From: an uncultured Ignavibacteria bacterium | GTDB taxonomy: Bacteria; Bacteroidota; Ignavibacteria; SZUA-365 | Length of the DNA: 33,665 nt | Direction of reading: 5' to 3' | Assembly (NCBI GenBank): GCA_913061095.1 | Contig: CAJXVM010000035.1 | Coordinates: 1-33,665, forward strand | Part shown: positions 2,713 to 10,830 of the stretch, piece by piece | How positions within the stretch are numbered: position 1 is the first letter of the stretch | Layout: the number at the start of each line of letters is the position of its first letter | Program-made: the position numbers and the translations under genes | Notes under the pieces: model-generated | What the model saw: only the letters and a program-made list of their open reading frames with translations | What the model was told of the DNA's origin: nothing | Database searches by the model: none

Positions 2713-2735
2713 ATGGTTGTGTGGCAGGCCCGTAA

Positions 2736-2755
2736 CCACACGCTCACGCGTGTGG
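2736..2755. repeat. 20-bp hairpin repeat, copy 2 of 5
   Basis: Identical to the hairpin at 2005-2024. The two copies therefore bracket the toxin-antitoxin operon in direct orientation. Bases after the hairpin (ctgcagtctgctgtgg) also loosely resemble those after copy 1 (ctactgcaatccgttg). Confidence 0.85.
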
Positions 2756-2789
2756 ATCCTGCAGTCTGCTGTGGCATGAGGCAGCCACC

Positions 2790-2835
2790 GTCCCTCGATA
2801 CGTCCCGAGCTCCGCTCGGGACTACACGGGATGAC
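2790..2835 (-). repeat. Palindromic dispersed element, copy A
   Basis: Read on the minus strand it starts GTCATCCCGTGTAGTCC and ends CGTATCGAGGGAC. The centre is a perfect 9-bp hairpin, GTCCCGAGC and GCTCGGGAC around a 3-base loop (2802-2822). It has the same ends as copies B (3577-3618) and C (5484-5525), with a different stem. Its GTCA end abuts the 9-bp array. Confidence 0.8.
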
Positions 2836-2915
2836 GATCCTCACGATCCTCCCGATCCTCACGATCCTCCCGATCCTCACGATCCTCCCGATCCTCACGA
2901 TCCTCCCGATCCTCA
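2835..2915. repeat. 9-bp tandem array (nine units)
   Basis: Nine consecutive units alternate CGATCCTCA and CGATCCTCC, so the true period is 18 bases in 4.5 copies. The array ends 5 bases before the -35 box of the egtB promoter. Such near-perfect repeats are prone to slippage, which here would change the sequence upstream of the promoter without touching a reading frame. Confidence 0.9.
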
Positions 2916-2920
2916 CGCAC

Positions 2921-2949
2921 TTGCAAACCTCCTCCGGGGTCTGTACAAT
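2921..2949 (+). promoter_or_regulatory. Promoter of egtB-egtD
   Basis: TTGCAA (2921-2926), a 17-base spacer and TACAAT (2944-2949) resemble a sigma70-like promoter about 34 bases before the egtB ATG. The -10 box overlaps a TGTACA hexamer (2942-2947), the core motif of the YefM operator upstream. This may be chance. Confidence 0.5.
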
Positions 2950-2982
2950 AGAAACACAACGGCCACAGATCCTGAGGATTTC

Positions 2983-4398
2983 ATGACCCATACCGGTACC
3001 GCAACGGGCGTCGTCTCCGTGCAGATCAACGAATCACTCGACGAGTATTACCGGCGCGTGCGCGGGTTTTCCGAACAGCTGTGCGAGACGCTGAAGACGG
3101 AGGATTATGTCGTGCAGACGATGCCCGATGTGAGTCCGACCAAGTGGCACCTCGCGCATACGAGCTGGTTTTTCGAAGCCTTCCTGCTGTCGACGTACCA
3201 GCCGGGCTACGAATCCCCGCATCCGCTGTACGGCTACCTCTTCAATTCCTATTACGTGCAGATCGGCGAGCGCTTCGACCGGCCGCATCGGGGATTGCTC
3301 TCGCGTCCTACCGTCGAAGAGGTTTTCGCTTACCGCGCGCATGTCGATCGGCATGTGCTCGACCTGCTCTCCACCGCGGATGCGGCGCAGCTCGCCGAAA
3401 TCGCACCCATCGTAACGCTCGGTCTCAACCACGAGCAGCAGCATCAGGAACTGCTGCTGACGGATATCAAGCATGTGCTGTCGGTGAATCCCCTGCGGCC
3501 AGTGTACAGGCAGGAAGCAGGAGGCAGGAGGGAGAATGCAGGAGGCAGTAGGCAGGACGCAGGAGTTCAGCGGAACGTCATCCCGAGTAGTCCGCCGGAG
3601 GCGGACGTATCGAGGGAACACGCCGCCGCCCGTACCGGGGCACATGAAGCGCCCCCGCTTAACTGGATTTCCTTCGACGAGGGACTGTATGAGATCGGCT
3701 ACGAGGGCGAGGGGTTCCGTTTCGACAACGAGGAGCCGCGGCACCGGGAGTTTATCGAAGCATTTCAGCTCGCCTCGCGCCCGGTGACGGCGGGCGAGTT
3801 CATGGCGTTCATCGAGGACGATGGATATCGACGCGCGGAGCTGTGGCTCTCCGACGGCGCGGCGACGGTGGAGGCAGAGGGCTGGGAAGCGCCGCTGTAC
3901 TGGGAGCTGCATGACGGCGCATGGTGGCAGTTCACGCTCAGCGGCTTTCGTCCCGTGCAGCCCGATGAGCCGGTGACACATGTGAGCCTCTATGAGGCCG
4001 ACGCCTTCGCGCGCTGGGCCGGCGCCCGCCTTCCCGGCGAAGCCGAATGGGAGGTCGCCGCCGCCACGGTCCCGCCCGAGGGCAACTTCGCGGATACCGG
4101 CTGCTGCCATCCGGCGGCGCTGTCGGATTTTGAGGCCGAGGGACTGCAGCAGATGTTCGGGGATGTGTGGGAATGGACGCGCAGTCCGTATGCGCCCTAC
4201 CCCGGATATCAGCCGCCACCCGGCGCGGTCGGCGAGTACAACGGAAAGTTCATGTCCAGCCAGAACGTGCTGCGCGGCGGCTCCTGCGCGACCTCGCGCG
4301 ACCACATCCGCAATACGTACCGCAATTTCTTCTATCCACATCAGCGATGGCAGTTCACGGGCATCCGCCTCGCAAAGGACGCAGGAGGTGCGCGATGA
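2983..4398 (+). CDS. egtB: EgtB, iron-dependent sulfoxide synthase of ergothioneine biosynthesis
   Basis: EgtB joins hercynine to a cysteine-containing thiol using O2, the C-S bond-forming step of ergothioneine synthesis. The 471-residue protein has a DinB-like N-terminal domain with the three iron-binding histidines: H59 in HTSWFFE, and H150 and H154 in HEQQHQE. A formylglycine-generating-enzyme-like domain follows (about 219 to the end), ending in the typical YRNFFYPHQRWQFTGIRLA. The ATG at 2983 follows GAGG at 2974-2977; the frame is open further upstream, but only through repeats. Residues 176-219, between the two domains, are an odd linker. It is encoded by eight heptamers plus an in-frame copy of the palindromic element. 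The stop overlaps the egtD start (ATGA), so the two genes are translationally coupled. No egtA, egtC or egtE is in the window. Confidence 0.95.
   Translation: MTHTGTATGVVSVQINESLDEYYRRVRGFSEQLCETLKTEDYVVQTMPDVSPTKWHLAHTSWFFEAFLLSTYQPGYESPHPLYGYLFNSYYVQIGERFDRPHRGLLSRPTVEEVFAYRAHVDRHVLDLLSTADAAQLAEIAPIVTLGLNHEQQHQELLLTDIKHVLSVNPLRPVYRQEAGGRRENAGGSRQDAGVQRNVIPSSPPEADVSREHAAARTGAHEAPPLNWISFDEGLYEIGYEGEGFRFDNEEPRHREFIEAFQLASRPVTAGEFMAFIEDDGYRRAELWLSDGAATVEAEGWEAPLYWELHDGAWWQFTLSGFRPVQPDEPVTHVSLYEADAFARWAGARLPGEAEWEVAAATVPPEGNFADTGCCHPAALSDFEAEGLQQMFGDVWEWTRSPYAPYPGYQPPPGAVGEYNGKFMSSQNVLRGGSCATSRDHIRNTYRNFFYPHQRWQFTGIRLAKDAGGAR
3510..3618 (+). repeat. Heptamer array plus palindromic element copy B inside egtB
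   Basis: Eight 7-bp units based on GCAGGAG fill 3510-3565. After an 11-base joint comes element copy B (3577-3618), starting GTCATCCCGAGTAGTCC and ending CGTATCGAGGGAA. Its perfect hairpin is GTCCGCC and GGCGGAC around GGA (3590-3606). Copy B is 42 bases, exactly 14 codons, and is read as VIPSSPPEADVSRE. The same order, heptamers then GTCATCCC, occurs on the minus strand at the end of recQ. The array length is not fixed by codon phase: one unit more or fewer would frameshift egtB. Confidence 0.85.
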
Positions 4399-5354
4399 CG
4401 CAGACCGCAACGGTGCAGAACATCGATGAGCAGACACAGCTTCGCGACGAGCTGCTGGCCGGACTCCGCCGTACGCAGAAAACGCTGCCGAGCAAATATT
4501 TTTACGACGACGTCGGATCGGCGTTGTTCGAAGACATCTGCGCGCTGCGGGAATACTATCCCACGCGTACGGAGATTGGCATCCTGGAACACAACATCCA
4601 CGACATCGCGGCGAGGATCGGTTCGCGCTGCCTGCTGATCGAATACGGCAGCGGCGCGAGCGTGAAAATCCGTCTGCTGCTCGACCACCTGCGCGGTATC
4701 GCCGGCTACGTGCCCATTGACATCTCCGCGGAGCACCTCCTATCCGCCGCGGATGAACTGCGCGCCGAATACCCGAAGCTGCGCATCCTGCCGGTGCCGG
4801 CGGATTACACGCTGGAGTTCGATCTCCCCGACATCGAGTTCCCCTATGACCGGCGCGTGGTGTTCTTCCCCGGATCTACGATCGGGAATTTCACACCGGA
4901 GCAGGCGCGGGATTTCCTCTCGCATATCGCGGAAACGGCGGCGGAAGACGGTGGACTGCTGATCGGCGTGGATCTGAAGAAGGACATCGCGGTGCTGGAG
5001 GCGGCCTACAACGACAGCCGGGGCGTCACGGCCGATTTCAACCTCAACATGCTCGTGCGTCTCAACAAAGAGTTCGACGGGGATTTCGATCTGGATGCCT
5101 TCCGGCACAGCGCGGTGTACAACGCCGCGGTGGGACGAATCGAAATGCATCTTGTCAGCAAGCACGAACAGGTCGCCCGCGTGGCGGGAGAGCAGTTCCT
5201 GTTCCGCGCCGGCGAGAGCATCCTTACCGAGTATTCCTACAAGTACACGCCCGAGGAGTTCGCGGAGCTGGCGGCGCCGTATTTCAATGTCGAATCGGTG
5301 TGGACCGACCAGAAGCGCTGGTTCAGTGTGCAGTACCTCGCCGTGAGGCAGTAA
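4395..5354 (+). CDS. egtD: EgtD, histidine N-alpha-trimethyltransferase
   Basis: EgtD uses three S-adenosylmethionine molecules to convert histidine to hercynine, the substrate of EgtB. The 319-residue protein has the SAM-binding motif LIEYGSGAS (81-89). It also has the family signature FFPGSTIGNF with N165, and E279 and S281 in TEYSYKY; in the mycobacterial enzyme the equivalent residues hold the histidine substrate. The N-terminal LPSKYFYDDVGSALFEDI is also typical of the family. The ATG overlaps the egtB stop by four bases and has a strong Shine-Dalgarno (AGGAGGTG, 4383-4390). The stop codon lies inside the first unit of a heptamer array (GCAGTAA), so the array supplies the C-terminal RQ. 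egtB and egtD form one operon. Confidence 0.96.
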   Translation: MTQTATVQNIDEQTQLRDELLAGLRRTQKTLPSKYFYDDVGSALFEDICALREYYPTRTEIGILEHNIHDIAARIGSRCLLIEYGSGASVKIRLLLDHLRGIAGYVPIDISAEHLLSAADELRAEYPKLRILPVPADYTLEFDLPDIEFPYDRRVVFFPGSTIGNFTPEQARDFLSHIAETAAEDGGLLIGVDLKKDIAVLEAAYNDSRGVTADFNLNMLVRLNKEFDGDFDLDAFRHSAVYNAAVGRIEMHLVSKHEQVARVAGEQFLFRAGESILTEYSYKYTPEEFAELAAPYFNVESVWTDQKRWFSVQYLAVRQ

Positions 5355-5537: not shown

Positions 5538-5565
5538 GTCCTGCTTACTGCTTCCTGCCTCCTGC
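5538..5565 (-). repeat. Heptamer array covering the recQ stop codon (four units)
   Basis: On the minus strand the units are GCAGGAG, GCAGGAA, GCAGTAA and GCAGGAC. The recQ stop TAA is the end of the third, and the units encode the terminal AGGRKQ of RecQ. This mirrors egtD, whose stop also lies in a GCAGTAA unit. Confidence 0.85.
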
Positions 5566-8220
5566 GTTCAGCGCTGCCAGCATGATCCGTATTTCCGCAT
5601 AGCTGACGGCTGCATCCACAACTCCCTTTATTTTTTTCAGATTCCGGTCGCGCAGGCGGCGGACGGCGCCGCGGATCTGGTCCTGATGCGCCGGGGGCAC
5701 GAGCGCGTCGAGCTTGAGCTGCATGCCGCGCTGCAGCATTTCCGAAATGTGATTCGAGATGGTGCCCTCGGTCAGACCGCGCTTCTGCGCGATGTCCGCC
5801 AGTCCGAGACCGCGCTCGGCCAGTTCCCAGGTGCTGCGCATCGTGGGCGGCAAATCCTGGAAGGCGGAGCGATTGCGCTCCATGCTGCCGGCGAGGGATT
5901 GCTCGTGCTGGTAATCCTCGATCGCCCGCAGCAGATCGCGGCCGATCTTTTTGAATGACACCGGACCCATGCCCTCGACGGCGAGCAGCTCCTCGCGTGA
6001 CTGTGGACGCGCGTCCGAGACCGCGCGGAGGATGCGGTCTGAGAGCAGCGTGTGCGACGGCACGTTGAGCGAAGCCGCGATGCGACGGCGCACGGCCTTG
6101 AGGGCTTCGAAAAGCACGGGATCCGCCGCGGCGCCTTCCTCCGCCTCGACGGGCGAGGGCACCGGCATCGGCGTCACCTCGTAGCCGAGATGCGCGCGAC
6201 CGACTTCGGTGATGTACACTGAGGGACGCAGCGAGTCGCTTTTCGCGAGCCAGCCCATGCCGATCAGGGCATCCACCGTGTCGGTGACGAGGCGCTTATC
6301 GAGGCCCTGCATTTTCGCGTACGTGCTCGACTCGTACAGGCGATACTGCTTGATGCGCTGCGTCTGCGCGCCCCGCAGGATGTCGACCAGCGTGCTGCGC
6401 CCGAAGCGTCCGCCGGTCTCGGCCGCGCAGTGCAGGATGAGCGCGTGGTAGCGCTCGAAGGTATCCTGCTCGGTTTCCTCCGCGGCGTGAATCACCGTCG
6501 AGGTGCAGGTGTCGCATTTCCCGCAGACACCGCGTACGTCGGCCTCGTCGAAGTACTCGAGAATCATGTTCCGCCGGCAGGCACTGCCGGTGATGTAGCG
6601 CTCCATCGCCTGCAGCTTCTCGAGCTGATGCCGCATCCGGCGCTCGATGGCAGAGTAGTCGATGTGCAGATCCTGCGCCTGCACACGCTGCCCGAGCAGC
6701 GCAATGCCGCTGCCTTTCCTTCCTGCCGTGAAATCAATGATGCGTTCCTCATGCAGGCGGCGCAGCGCGGGCATCAGATCCTCCGCGCGCAGCCCGCTTT
6801 TCTGCGACAGCTCATCGATGAACAGCGGCGTGGGATCGTAGAAGGCGGTGCCCCCGACGACGCGCAGCAGCTGCACCGCGACGGGCTGGAGATCGGGGGG
6901 AGCTGATTCGATCATCCACGTGCGCATGCGCTCGGGCGACAGCAGGAACTGCACGGAGGATTCGCTCCACGATTCGCTGATGCGGCGGATGTACTCGTCG
7001 CGCTCCAGCACGTCGAGCGCGCCGCGCACGGCAGACTCCGAGGCCTCGCCGACCATCGACGCAAGACTCGATGGCGTCAGCGGCAGCAGCCCGTCATAGT
7101 ACTGCCCGAGCTGCGTGCCCGCGAAGTTGTGCAGCTGCGCGTAGACTTTCTGGATCAACGCGCGGTCGGGGAAGGTGTTGCGGATGAAGAATTCCGGCAG
7201 CGAACGGTCCTTGGGATGATAGAGAATCGTGCAGGTGCTCTCCGCGCCGTCGCGCCCGGCGCGCCCGGCCTCCTGATAATACTGCTCGATGGTGGACGGC
7301 ATGTCGTGATGCACCACGAAGCGCACGTCGCGCTTGTCGATACCCATGCCGAATGCCGTGGTCGCCACGATGACCCGCGTGCGGCCGTCCATGAAACGCT
7401 CCTGCACCTCCTTGCGCGCGGTGGATTGCAGTCCGCCGTGATACCCCTCGGCGGGAATCCCGTGCTGCCGCAGCATGATCGACAGCTCCTCGACACTTTT
7501 CCGCGTGCCGGCGTACACGATGCCGCACTCCTCCGCGGAGCAGATGCGGAAGATCTCGTCGCGCTTGTTGACGCCGTTCATGACGCGGAAGGTCAGGTTT
7601 TCACGATTAAATCCGCGCACGATGACCGACGGATTCGCGAGCCCGAGCTGCGTCTGGATGTCCTTGCGCACGTCGGGTGTGGCGGTGGCGGTCAGCGCCA
7701 CGATCTGCGGCGTGCCGAGCTCCTCGATGCTCTCGCGCAGGCGCAGGTAGCTGGGACGAAAGTCGTGCCCCCATTCGCTGATGCAGTGCGCCTCGTCGAC
7801 GGCGAACATGCTGATGCGGATGCCTTTCATGCGCTCGACGAAGGTCTTGCTCTCGAAGCGCTCCGGCGCCACGTACATGAGGCGGTACCAGCCGTTGCGC
7901 GCCCTGTCGAGGCGGTTCATCACCTCGCGGTAATCCAGCATGGAATTGATGAACGTCGCCTTGATGCGCGCGCGTTCGAGCGCCGCCACCTGGTCCTGCA
8001 TCAAGGATATCAGGGGGGATATCACGATGGTGAGCCCGTCGAAGAGCACGGCGGGGATCTGGTAGCAGATGGATTTCCCGCCGCCGGTCGGCATGACGGC
8101 GATGGTATCCCTGCGATGGATGATGGATTGAATGATGGTGTCCTGTCCGGGACGGAAGGACTCGTATCCGAAATGCCGCTGCAGCGCCTGCAGCGCGTCA
8201 TCGAATGTCGGTGTCTGCAT
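5545..8220 (-). CDS. recQ: RecQ-family DNA helicase, long form
   Basis: RecQ unwinds DNA 3' to 5' in recombination repair and fork restart. The 891-residue protein has Walker A PTGGGKS (44-50), DEAH (142-145), and lobe 2 with YYQEAGRAGRDG near 314-325. The zinc-binding cysteines C548, C566, C569 and C572 keep the usual C-x17-C-x2-C-x2-C spacing. They lie unusually far downstream: about 200 residues, including a winged-helix-like stretch (ASMVGEASESAVRGALDVL), separate them from the helicase core. A RQC region, an HRDC domain (about 690-765) and a C-terminal helix-turn-helix (LADIAQKRGLTEGTISNHI) follow. E. coli RecQ has about 610 residues. The ATG follows GGGAG by seven bases. The C-terminus is encoded by heptamer repeats. 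The gene converges with egtD. Confidence 0.95.
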   Translation of the reverse strand: MQTPTFDDALQALQRHFGYESFRPGQDTIIQSIIHRRDTIAVMPTGGGKSICYQIPAVLFDGLTIVISPLISLMQDQVAALERARIKATFINSMLDYREVMNRLDRARNGWYRLMYVAPERFESKTFVERMKGIRISMFAVDEAHCISEWGHDFRPSYLRLRESIEELGTPQIVALTATATPDVRKDIQTQLGLANPSVIVRGFNRENLTFRVMNGVNKRDEIFRICSAEECGIVYAGTRKSVEELSIMLRQHGIPAEGYHGGLQSTARKEVQERFMDGRTRVIVATTAFGMGIDKRDVRFVVHHDMPSTIEQYYQEAGRAGRDGAESTCTILYHPKDRSLPEFFIRNTFPDRALIQKVYAQLHNFAGTQLGQYYDGLLPLTPSSLASMVGEASESAVRGALDVLERDEYIRRISESWSESSVQFLLSPERMRTWMIESAPPDLQPVAVQLLRVVGGTAFYDPTPLFIDELSQKSGLRAEDLMPALRRLHEERIIDFTAGRKGSGIALLGQRVQAQDLHIDYSAIERRMRHQLEKLQAMERYITGSACRRNMILEYFDEADVRGVCGKCDTCTSTVIHAAEETEQDTFERYHALILHCAAETGGRFGRSTLVDILRGAQTQRIKQYRLYESSTYAKMQGLDKRLVTDTVDALIGMGWLAKSDSLRPSVYITEVGRAHLGYEVTPMPVPSPVEAEEGAAADPVLFEALKAVRRRIAASLNVPSHTLLSDRILRAVSDARPQSREELLAVEGMGPVSFKKIGRDLLRAIEDYQHEQSLAGSMERNRSAFQDLPPTMRSTWELAERGLGLADIAQKRGLTEGTISNHISEMLQRGMQLKLDALVPPAHQDQIRGAVRRLRDRNLKKIKGVVDAAVSYAEIRIMLAALNAGGRKQ

Positions 8221-8363
8221 CGTCGTACTCCCTATGTGTGAACGATGGTGAATTGCTGACTGACGTCACGTATGTGGATTCGCTGCATGATACGGTCCTG
8301 CGCAGGCCCAGTTTCAGGTCCGGCAGCGATATGTCCGTGCGTATATCCCCGGTGTCGCCATGG

Positions 8364-8810
8364 TCAGGCGACGGGTTCTCCGGCAGCTCTGCCGCGCACG
8401 GGAGCGGTGTCCCGGTTGACCATTTCGCCGGTGGACGGTTTCGCGGGCTCCGAGGGGTGCGGGTAGTATGCAGCCAGTTCGCCGGCCATGAACTTCGTCA
8501 CGGCGAGGATGACGCCGAGATCGTCGAGATAGCCGACGAGCGGCGCCAGATCGGGTATGGCGTCGAGGGGCGAAATGAAATAGAGCAGGGCCGCGACCAC
8601 GACGGTTTTCCGCTGCCAGGGCACCGTGGCGTCCATGAAATAGCGGTACAGCGCAAGCAGATCCTGCGCGAAACGCAGTTTGCCGCCGACGCGCTCGAGC
8701 TTGTCCTCGAACTGGTCGCGCACCTGCCGCGACTGGCGGCGGTACACTTCCTCGTCACGCTCGCCGCTGATGTCGTAGCCTTCGAAAAACTGATTCAGTT
8801 CTTTGTCCAT
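8364..8810 (-). CDS. DUF1232 (YkvA-like) membrane protein
   Basis: This 148-residue protein has the DUF1232 core, VVAALLYFISPLDAIPDL followed by LVGYLDDLGV. That is a short hydrophobic hairpin with the conserved SPxDxIPD motif. Members are small membrane-associated proteins of unknown function. A charged, probably helical N-terminal half (MDKELNQFFEGYD...) and a low-complexity tail flank the core. I chose the ATG at 8810 because GAGGGAA lies 5 bases upstream; an in-frame ATG ten codons further out has no such site. A promoter candidate is at 8850-8878. The upstream small gene has its own terminator, so this gene is probably transcribed separately. recQ follows in the same direction after about 140 bases. 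Confidence 0.85.
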   Translation of the reverse strand: MDKELNQFFEGYDISGERDEEVYRRQSRQVRDQFEDKLERVGGKLRFAQDLLALYRYFMDATVPWQRKTVVVAALLYFISPLDAIPDLAPLVGYLDDLGVILAVTKFMAGELAAYYPHPSEPAKPSTGEMVNRDTAPVRGRAAGEPVA

Positions 8811-8849
8811 GGATTCCCTCGCACAGAAAAAATACACTACCGAAACCGC

Positions 8850-8878
8850 AAAATAGAGGCAGGTGGACTAAAGAACAA
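8850..8878 (-). promoter_or_regulatory. Promoter of the DUF1232 gene
   Basis: On the minus strand TTGTTC (8878-8873), a 17-base spacer and TATTTT (8855-8850), followed by GC, lie 40 bases before the start codon. The same TTGTTC-N17-TATWTTGC arrangement occurs upstream of the large surface protein (29801-29831). That supports both. Confidence 0.45.
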
Positions 8879-8899
8879 GGGAAAAGGCGGGACAGAAAC

Positions 8900-8932
8900 A
8901 AAAAACCCGCCGAAAACGGGTCTCGACGGGTT
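8900..8932 (-). terminator. Intrinsic terminator after the 62-residue gene
   Basis: On the minus strand AACCCGTCG pairs with CGGCGGGTT (nine pairs including one G-T) around an 11-base loop. Six T residues run from the end of the stem. It lies 28 bases after the small gene's stop codon, in the right orientation. Confidence 0.8.
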
Positions 8933-8960
8933 GTGGATCTATGTAATGAAGTGTGAGCGG

Positions 8961-9149
8961 TCAGTCGGAGAGCCGAAGCTTCGCCAGAATGGCGGATCCG
9001 AGGGTGCTCAGCGGCTTCATGAATGCGTAAATGAGGGCGGCGGCGGTCGGACTCCCGTGACGCGCGTGCGGATGCGGATGCGCTATTGCGACACTGCGCG
9101 CATTGCGATTCCTGAGGCGTGCTTCCGAGATCATCTGCTGTCCAACCAT
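8961..9149 (-). CDS. Small protein of 62 residues, unknown function
   Basis: I do not recognise this protein. It begins MVGQQMISEARLRNRNA, has a histidine/proline-rich middle (AHPHPHARHG), and ends in a hydrophobic, probably helical segment with basic residues (TAAALIYAFMKPLSTLGSA). That tail could sit in or on a membrane. The case for a real gene is good: GGAGG lies 5 bases before the ATG and a clear intrinsic terminator follows 28 bases after the stop. The frame is open for 50 codons further upstream, but no start there has comparable support. The upstream DNA is AT-rich, with a 17-bp palindrome at 9284-9300 that may be an operator. It stands alone between the repeat island and the DUF1232 gene. 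Confidence 0.65.
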   Translation of the reverse strand: MVGQQMISEARLRNRNARSVAIAHPHPHARHGSPTAAALIYAFMKPLSTLGSAILAKLRLSD

Positions 9150-9283
9150 TTTTTCCTCCGTACTGCGGGGTTCACATTTTGCTGCACATATACATATGCA
9201 AATTTCACGCCAGAAAAAAAGCTCCTGAAACAGGACAGATTGGGCAATATGCTTGCATAAATGTGTGAAAATGAGGGACGGCG

Positions 9284-9300
9284 CGTGAACAATGTTCACG
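9284..9300. promoter_or_regulatory. 17-bp palindrome upstream of the small gene
   Basis: CGTGAACA and TGTTCACG flank a central A: perfect 8-bp arms, the geometry of a dimeric repressor site. It lies about 135 bases upstream of the 62-residue gene's start and next to the repeat island. No regulator gene is adjacent. It does not fit the Gram-positive LexA box, which needs four bases between GAAC and GTTC. Confidence 0.4.
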
Positions 9301-9308
9301 GCGGTAAG

Positions 9309-9344
9309 CGCGAGGAGCGCGAGGAGCGCGAGGAACGTGAGGAA
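9309..9344. repeat. 9-bp tandem array (four units)
   Basis: The units are CGCGAGGAG twice, then CGCGAGGAA and CGTGAGGAA. The reverse complement of the 2835-2915 array reads CGTGAGGAT and CGGGAGGAT, so both arrays fit CGnGAGGAn. This one marks the start of the repeat island. Confidence 0.8.
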
Positions 9345-9355
9345 GGGGAATGTAG

Positions 9356-9376
9356 GGCCGAGCCAACGGCTCGGCC
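9356..9376. repeat. Hairpin repeat, 9-bp stem
   Basis: GGCCGAGCC and GGCTCGGCC flank the loop AAC: a perfect stem in the non-coding island. No second copy was found in the window. Confidence 0.7.
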
Positions 9377-9410
9377 TGCTGAAAGCACGGCCTCAACCAC
9401 GGCATGCGCT

Positions 9411-9434
9411 AACCCCACCCGTGAGGGTGGGGTT
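9411..9434. repeat. Hairpin of the GTGA-loop type, copy 1 of 2
   Basis: Perfect 10-bp arms AACCCCACCC and GGGTGGGGTT enclose the loop GTGA. An identical copy is at 9632-9655. The two enclose the tandem copies of the CCACACGC hairpin. Confidence 0.85.
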
Positions 9435-9442
9435 CGGGAAAC

Positions 9443-9608
9443 GCCGTGTGTGCCCACACGCTCACGCGTGTGGATAGCGCAGCCCCTGATATGGACGGGG
9501 GTCGCGAGCCGTGTGTGCCCACACGCTCACGCGTGTGGATAGCCCAGCCCCTGATATGGACGTGGGTCGGCGAGCCGTGTGTGCCCACACGCTCACGCGT
9601 GTGGTTAA
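9443..9608. repeat. 65-bp tandem repeat with three CCACACGC hairpins
   Basis: Two full units (65 and 66 bases, starting at 9443 and 9508) and a third partial unit (from 9574) each carry the 20-bp hairpin, at 9454-9473, 9519-9538 and 9585-9604. The sequence between hairpins is repeated too (cagcccctgatatggacg), so this is one amplified unit, not a repeat-spacer array. Confidence 0.88.
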
Positions 9609-9631
9609 TGCCATTCATGGCGGTATGCGGT

Positions 9632-9655
9632 AACCCCACCCGTGAGGGTGGGGTT
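9632..9655. repeat. Hairpin of the GTGA-loop type, copy 2 of 2
   Basis: Identical to 9411-9434. It ends 24 bases beyond the stop of the leftward lipoprotein gene, so it would lie in that gene's mRNA 3' end. It could protect that end or weakly terminate; no T-run follows. Confidence 0.85.
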
Positions 9656-9679
9656 CGCGGAGCGCCACACGCCCCCACG

Positions 9680-10201
9680 TCAATAATTCGATTCATCGCG
9701 CCACTGTGTGATTTTCCAGGGGGCGGACGCGGAGGGACGCCGCAGGTCGAGGCTGACGCGGCCGTCCACGCGCACGACGTCGCTGGGATTGAAGGTGACA
9801 GTGAGATTGAAACTGCGGGTGACGCTGCTGCGGAGGGAGTCACCCGAGAAGCCGACAATATTATTCCAGACGAGGTTCAGACTGCTGGCGTTCTGGAAGA
9901 GATGCCAGGTGATGCGCATCTCCTCGTCGCGTCCCCAGCTCTCATCGACGCGCCGCTCGTAGTCGCGATACGTGAAGACGAAATCATGCGCGAGCAGTCC
10001 GCCGTATATCGTCGTGTCCTTGAACGTGTAGGCGTAGCGGAAATTCTGGAACAGCCCGTCTACCGTGGTCTGATCGGTGATGAGGTTCGTGCCGCCATCG
10101 TCGGCCACCTCGATCGCGGGCGCAAAGGGATTGCATGCGGAGGCGAGAACGAGCAGGAGCAGGAGCAGCCGGATGCGCCGCAGGCGCAGGAGGTCCGCCA
10201 T
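9680..10201 (-). CDS. Putative lipoprotein, second of a tandem pair
   Basis: The 173-residue protein starts MADLLRLRRIRLLLLLLVLASAC: a basic start, a leucine-rich core and a cysteine at 23 that fits a lipoprotein signal, though alanine at -3 is not ideal. The mature part begins with probable helices (VDGLFQNFRYAYTF), continues as alternating strands and ends WKITQWRDE. That pattern recalls NTF2-like folds, but I cannot name a family. The upstream gene encodes a lipoprotein with a similar plan ending WSITRWTD, so the two are probably diverged paralogues. I placed the start at the signal peptide; the frame is open 34 codons further upstream with no signal. Only 35 bases separate the genes. The repeat island lies directly downstream. 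Confidence 0.72.
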   Translation of the reverse strand: MADLLRLRRIRLLLLLLVLASACNPFAPAIEVADDGGTNLITDQTTVDGLFQNFRYAYTFKDTTIYGGLLAHDFVFTYRDYERRVDESWGRDEEMRITWHLFQNASSLNLVWNNIVGFSGDSLRSSVTRSFNLTVTFNPSDVVRVDGRVSLDLRRPSASAPWKITQWRDESNY

Positions 10202-10236
10202 AGCTGAACGGAGCGAAGCGACAGCGGAGGGTGTCG

Positions 10237-10830
10237 TCAATTTGCGAACCGTCCTTTCCATTCGCTCCAGCTCGTTTCGTCGGTGACGGGGAGGTCGGTC
10301 CACCGCGTGATGCTCCAGATCGAGTTGCGGTCGGTGTGCATGACAAACTGCAGGGTGCCGCGCACGGTCTCGGCGAGATTGCTCACACCATGCCGGAAGG
10401 TGAAGTCGTAGCTTCCTTCATAGATGGCGGAGTCGGCGGCGATGACGGAAAAGTCACCGGTGAGTACGAGACTCGACGGTGCATTGTCTTCCGCAAACGC
10501 TTTCATGGCGGCGAACCAGGCGCGCTCGGACTGCAGCGACCAGGATGCGAATGTGGTCGCGTATCGTCCCGCTGCGGCGGCCGTGGGAATGAACTCGTAA
10601 CGCTGATCCGAATTGAGCGTGTCGACCAGACAGCGCAGGAAGTTTTCCGTACTCTGTTCCGCGGCAGCATTCCGCAGGTTCTCCAGTACGAGATCGGGTG
10701 ACGTCGGCGGCACGAAGGTGCTGCTGCCGCTCGTCGGCGGCTCGGGATCACGGGTCTCGAACAGACCACATCCCGCAAGAAGGATGTAGGAAGCAGCAAG
10801 CAGTATGCGGGCGGTGAGCAGAGGTTTCAT
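10237..10830 (-). CDS. Putative lipoprotein, first of a tandem pair
   Basis: The 197-residue protein has a clear lipoprotein signal: MKPLLTARILLAASYILLAGC with lipobox LAGC and C21 as the lipidated residue. A proline/serine-rich spacer (about 25-45) leads to a compact domain with N-terminal helices (DLVLENLRNAAAEQSTENFL). A sheet-like second half follows, ending in WSITRWTDLP. The helix-then-sheet order and the terminal W-x-I-T-x-W motif match the next gene downstream. The function is unknown; a periplasmic or surface-facing binding role is a guess. The start is 23 bases after the methyltransferase stop, so it probably belongs to the recR-methyltransferase transcript. Confidence 0.78.
   Translation of the reverse strand: MKPLLTARILLAASYILLAGCGLFETRDPEPPTSGSSTFVPPTSPDLVLENLRNAAAEQSTENFLRCLVDTLNSDQRYEFIPTAAAAGRYATTFASWSLQSERAWFAAMKAFAEDNAPSSLVLTGDFSVIAADSAIYEGSYDFTFRHGVSNLAETVRGTLQFVMHTDRNSIWSITRWTDLPVTDETSWSEWKGRFAN

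Follow-up and report, generated by a model that had tools for sequence, protein, structure and literature searches.

The window, by which we mean the whole stretch of 33,665 nucleotides that was analysed, carries on its minus strand a short frame encoding 62 amino acids, located between a putative lipoprotein gene and a DUF1232-recQ pair. A previous sequence-only reading had described this frame together with a Shine-Dalgarno, a strong intrinsic terminator and a 17-bp palindrome upstream. We found all four elements in place on the minus strand, along with two features that it had not mentioned: a second box (9265-9279) and, at 9198-9212, a -24/-12 element. The locus is composed as follows.

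5545-8220: recQ, after the DUF1232 gene; synteny marker
8364..8837, minus strand: downstream neighbour, DUF1232 (YkvA-like) protein; synteny marker, a separate unit beyond the terminator
8904..8932, minus strand: intrinsic terminator, stem of 12 pairs followed by a T-rich tail
8961..9149, minus strand: small-protein gene, 62 aa, ATG at 9149 and TGA at 8961, N-terminal motif M[VI]GQQM[IL]xExR
9155..9159, minus strand: Shine-Dalgarno GGAGG, 5 bases 5′ of ATG 9149
9198..9212, minus strand: putative sigma-54-type -24/-12 element, TGGCGTGAAATTTGC; transcription start predicted near 9186 from the position of the -12
9265..9279, minus strand: predicted upstream activator box 2, GTCCCTCATTTTCAC, 20 bp from box 1, with a degenerate promoter-distal half
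9285..9299, minus strand: predicted upstream activator box 1, GTGAACATTGTTCAC, inside the palindrome
9680..10303, minus strand: upstream neighbour, putative lipoprotein LP1; synteny marker

The 62-residue gene and its product

As judged from codon-level comparison of nine homologues, the frame is a real protein-coding gene under purifying selection. It had been regarded as the sort of small gene that is easily overlooked, and a frame broken in close relatives had been named as the observation that would speak against it. The frame is open in 9/9 homologues and dN is lower than dS in all 25 computable pairs (of 36 pairs in total), the closest pair having a dN of 0.052 and a dS of 0.99. Third codon positions are the most variable in each third of the gene, and indels among homologues are of whole codons. 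Every copy (n=9) starts with the motif M[VI]GQQM..E.R, in which M1, G3, Q4, Q5, M6, E9 and R11 are invariant, several of them being coded by varying codons; relatives display the conserved residues with synonymous change that had been proposed as a check. A spurious open reading frame was rejected on this conservation of frame and codons in 9 homologues. A longer version starting in frame at GTG 9299 (112 aa) was dismissed and ATG 9149 retained as the start, because conservation of the protein begins at ATG 9149.

The gene is predicted to be a transcription unit of its own, with its own promoter region and terminator, in agreement with its description as free-standing. The terminator is weak evidence when taken alone, as a simple scan yields 3 terminator-like sites in 2.5 kb versus 1.5 expected and a single site is not significant, but one is present 3′ of all nine homologues, where stem energies range from about -14 to -22 kcal/mol and a run of T follows. 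The stem sequences differ among these homologues.

The sequence-only reading could not match the protein, and neither could we: the 62-aa product has no relative in Pfam, NCBIfam, PHROGs (0 families) or PDB (0 sequences). The family is without a name in the libraries and literature that we searched. Structure prediction yields two helices, at residues 3-23 and 34-61, with a mean pLDDT of 70 and a pTM of 0.28 from an alignment of 3 sequences, values too low for the model to serve in a fold search. Where a hydrophobic, basic C-terminal helix had been proposed, a helix is predicted at 34-61, but the amphipathic moment of the C-terminus is only modestly above that of shuffled tails, with P < 0.05 in 3/9 only. 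The net charge of the protein ranges from +3 to +12 in the 9 homologues. The His/Pro-rich centre is present as reported, but its conservation is poor next to that of the N-terminus.

Among the genomes compared, the gene is lineage-specific and sits at a fixed place in a family of uncultured Bacteroidota-type bacteria. The N-terminal codon pattern gave one match per genome in 9 of the 12 family genomes, and none in the control. A protein search of 61 genomes, including the one analysed here, retrieved full-length relatives, which occur in 4/4 other genomes of the same genus (at 53-89% identity) and in some of the other family genomes. A profile built from the nine copies and run against 391 genomes of the class recovered these nine only with E < 1e-22, the next best match having an E of 0.006, and hence no convincing copy was found outside the family among these 391. 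Weaker class-level matches (E of 0.006 or higher) were dropped, since they lacked the N-terminal motif region or contained stops, and candidate duplicates within the genome itself were chance-level matches (E 0.4 and above). Near copies were found in two public records, assigned there to a Bacteroidetes bacterium (89%) and to an uncultured Ignavibacteria bacterium (70%).

All nine carriers have the gene flanked by the putative lipoprotein gene on one side and the DUF1232-recQ pair on the other. In a tenth family genome, G011, the contig ends within the promoter, next to the lipoprotein gene, but still includes both boxes; as this contig holds only the start of the promoter, G011 was excluded from all protein counts. 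In the remaining two (G005 and G007) the neighbour genes are on different contigs and the 62-aa gene was not found. LP1 is present in 16/18 class relatives searched, and at 9680-10830 two putative lipoprotein genes adjoin, neither of them with a Pfam family. The window copy has REP-like palindromes between the lipoprotein gene and the 62-aa gene: identical intergenic copies of CACGCTCACGCGTGTGG (five) and AACCCCACCCGTGAGGGTGGGGTT (two) occur in the window, at 9411-9655 and also at 2008-2024 and 2739-2755, with 0 expected in shuffles. Frames at 2713-5354 are putatively EgtB- and EgtD-like (ergothioneine pathway). A gene for SprA, of the type IX translocon, lies 3.4 kb upstream of the 62-aa gene with other genes between, a nearness that may be a coincidence.

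A tandem box shared across the family

The 17-mer CGTGAACATTGTTCACG at 9284-9300 is the palindrome already described, all of its positions pairing except the middle base. It contains the first of two boxes of the GTGAA-N5-TTCAC type; this tandem pattern is matched once in the window and in none of 100 shuffles. In 9/9 homologues we found box 1, box 2 exactly 20 bp on, and the -24/-12 element at a distance of 86-88 bp, counted from where box 1 begins. All nine promoters have the GG and eight have GG-N10-GC, the ninth having GA at the -12. The full TGGC-N7-TTGC is found in 7/9 homologue promoters, versus 0.44% of random 110-bp stretches. It is the conserved position relative to the boxes that gives the element its weight, since the pattern by itself is nothing unusual here (3 matches in the window versus 2.1 expected). 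PMC4641369 gives the sigma-54 consensus as tGGcacg / tTGCt and places upstream sites at distances of roughly 100 bp and above; the -24/-12 consensus is also quoted in PMC12316311. By its sequence the promoter of the 62-aa gene looks like a sigma-54-type promoter, and would presumably be read by sigma-54.

We then considered the boxes genome-wide. The single-box pattern GTGAA-N5-TTCAC matches 9 places in the genome analysed here (control 0). The tandem box gave 49 matches, corresponding to 44 places in 12/12 family genomes (five symmetric sites match both strands), versus 1 match of the reversed control. A looser one-box pattern, for which control counts were close to match counts in several genomes (3 vs 5 in G000), served for confirming coordinates only. 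Sorted by neighbour, 10 places precede the 62-aa gene (10/10 of its visible promoters, G011 included), 9 an alpha/beta hydrolase, 9 a secreted protein of ~136 aa and 12 a two-gene operon; 2 are at another secreted gene (G000 and G001) and 2 outside these groups. In G005 and G007 the tandem box is found before the operon only. The palindrome had been taken to suggest dedicated regulation, and this idea has to be abandoned because it is one half of a tandem box present at 44 places in 12 genomes, mostly before other genes.

The operon (L185:583-2906; G000:C21), which has the tandem box upstream in all 12 family genomes, encodes a membrane protein of 253 aa and a protein of 502 aa (~500 aa across the family). 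The first protein has paired hydrophobic helices, the second of which carries a glutamate in 9/10 members, and then a long polar tail; as Q replaces the glutamate in the G005 copy, its conservation is not strict. The second protein has a single N-terminal hydrophobic helix followed by a domain of ~470 aa. No Pfam family was found for either, and their candidate relatives among PDB sequences were chance matches. The GldL model TIGR03513 matches the first protein in 2/10 members, with a best E of 0.11. The hydrolase has weak matches to FrsA and to the prolyl-oligopeptidase family, and no family was found in Pfam or NCBIfam for the ~136-aa secreted protein. At L186:1-2155 and L190:1-2419, a tandem box is followed about 135 bp on by TGGCCCG-N4-TTGC, then by ~400 nt of conserved untranslated sequence and the genes of a secreted protein of ~155 aa and of a repeat protein.

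Spacing between box and element is 87-89 bp in 9/9 hydrolase sites; in secreted-protein sites it is 87-89 in 6/9 and 99-100 in 3/9, that is, about one helical turn more. In operon sites, of which 5/12 matched in the direction of the operon and the other 7 were judged from the reverse side, it is 95-98 in 8/12 and about 120 in 2/12, and the promoter element was not identified in the last 2/12. Steps near one helical turn would fit an activator that is required to face the polymerase. The GG of the -24 is kept in all 32 scored promoters, and the GC of the -12 is intact in 8/9 promoters of the 62-aa gene, 5/9 of the hydrolase, 0/9 of the secreted protein and 2/5 scored operon promoters. This frequent loss implies that not all of the regulon follows the sigma-54 consensus.

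The genome encodes 13 strong PF00158 proteins (sigma-54 activator domain), 8 of which have GAF[TS]GA. Within 400 bp upstream of these 13 candidate genes the box was absent except for mismatched cases: L124 has a single-mismatch box 291 bp upstream, inside what appears to be the coding sequence of another gene, and L125 a box with two mismatches. The idea that the activator gene would carry the box in front of itself was hence discarded.

Proposed mechanism and competing readings

Our best reading is that the 62-aa gene belongs to an unnamed, envelope-tied regulon of sigma-54 and an enhancer-binding protein, on which no paper was found in the literature searched. An NtrC-type enhancer-binding protein, one of the 13 strong candidates, would bind both 15-bp boxes, which lie 20 bp from each other and some 105 bp ahead of the predicted start, and would remodel the sigma-54 polymerase at TGGC-N7-TTGC. 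The resulting mRNA would be short and monocistronic, would have a good ribosome site and its own terminator, and would encode a basic protein of ~60 aa. Boxes of the same tandem pattern before the GldL/GldM-like membrane operon, the FrsA-like hydrolase and the small secreted protein suggest that the 62-aa protein is made together with envelope-related factors, and we infer an envelope role for it. Taken jointly, these steps, a lineage-specific small-protein gene switched by sigma-54 and an enhancer and sharing its boxes with envelope-related genes, make up an account that we hold to be probable.

The main alternative for its control is that the boxes serve as sites for an ordinary dimeric activator or repressor, CRP/FNR or similar, with a vegetative sigma factor reading the gene and TGGC...TTGC being no sigma-54 promoter. 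The GTGA/TCAC arms of the box do resemble those of a CRP site, but GTGA-N7-TCAC is one base longer than the CRP spacing, and the layout of the box, 5-N5-5, is that of NtrC boxes. The loss of the -12 GC in 9/9 secreted-protein promoters and a spacing unusually fixed for a looping activator would also be easier to accommodate with such a regulator; yet GG-N10-GC is found in 8/9 copies of the 62-aa gene promoter and GG in all 32 scored promoters. Furthermore, boxes ~105 bp from the predicted start are beyond class I/II contact and at a normal distance for an enhancer. Control by a dimeric regulator is, in our opinion, improbable. A second alternative is that the transcript acts as a small RNA in which the frame is incidental. 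The predicted transcript is short and monocistronic, with a strong terminator, and sigma-54-driven regulatory RNAs reportedly exist, but most variation falls at third codon positions, synonymous changes prevail and indels are of whole codons. Moreover, Rfam yielded no match nearing its cut-off over 8300-9700. On this combination a pure small RNA was rejected, and an incidental frame is extremely unlikely.

What the protein does is open to several readings. Under sigma-54 control as proposed, our guess, which is a tentative one, is that the protein works in the cytoplasm as an adaptor made of two helices: its invariant N-terminus would dock a partner while its basic amphipathic C-terminal helix would lie on the inner membrane. 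A basic small protein that binds nucleic acids or associates with the ribosome would be consistent with the Arg/His-rich middle, the net basic charge in 9/9 and the two predicted helices, but the basic residues of the middle have no positional conservation, the fixed residues being G, Q, Q, M, E and R, and no profile was matched (Pfam, NCBIfam, PHROGs; PDB sequences); we regard it as rather unlikely. A membrane-active peptide, toxin-like or acting by itself on the inner membrane, is likewise improbable. Its small size, its net charge of +3 to +12 (n=9) and the amphipathic C-terminal segment suit this role, but the moment exceeds that of shuffled tails (P<0.05) in 3/9 only, and the best-conserved part is the non-hydrophobic N-terminus. 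Neither a signal peptide nor an adjoining antitoxin frame is evident, and a gene that each carrier has once in its chromosome, at a fixed core position, is unlike toxin-antitoxin modules. Lastly, the protein could act from the cytoplasm on the co-regulated GldL/GldM-like proton motor, as its partner or its brake, in which case one enhancer-binding protein would yield motor, small regulator, hydrolase and secreted product together; this we consider very doubtful.

Relation to known systems

Small proteins controlled by a sigma-54 enhancer switch are a known kind of system, although this protein family and regulon are without a name. The promoter of the 62-aa gene has in common with sigma-54 (RpoN) promoters with NtrC-type boxes its GG-N10-GC and TGGCnnG...TTGC, and a pair of inverted-repeat boxes located some 105 bp upstream of the predicted start. 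It differs from them in that spacing between boxes and promoter is unusually constant and that several promoters of the regulon lack the -12 GC; GTGAA-N5-TTCAC is not among the box sequences in the available part of PMC4641369. The likeness to the GldL/GldM motor of type IX secretion (GldL features in PMC8986121) lies in the two-protein plan of the co-regulated operon, not in the 62-aa protein. Operon protein 1 differs by an extra N-terminus of ~80 aa, besides its marginal TIGR03513 match and the Q of the G005 copy. Similarly, the co-regulated hydrolase resembles FrsA-like esterases, but its match is weak, at 32 bits versus an NCBIfam cut-off of 477. PorXY/SigP, described in PMC10951265, is also a regulator of envelope-machine (type IX secretion) genes in Bacteroidota, but it employs an ECF sigma factor, whereas the signal here is of sigma-54 type. 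A search of the literature on type IX secretion and RpoN gave no title on such control.

These results give an unnamed frame the standing of a gene: its conserved residues are known, its promoter and activator sites are predicted, and its co-regulated partners are named. They outline a candidate sigma-54 regulon around an envelope operon, found in 12/12 family genomes, in bacteria on which experimental work is scarce. Sigma-54 control of this operon would be a novelty if its proteins do form a secretion or gliding motor, and if the small protein is a partner or brake of this motor, the envelope machine of the lineage would be placed under sigma-54 instead of the PorXY/SigP route.
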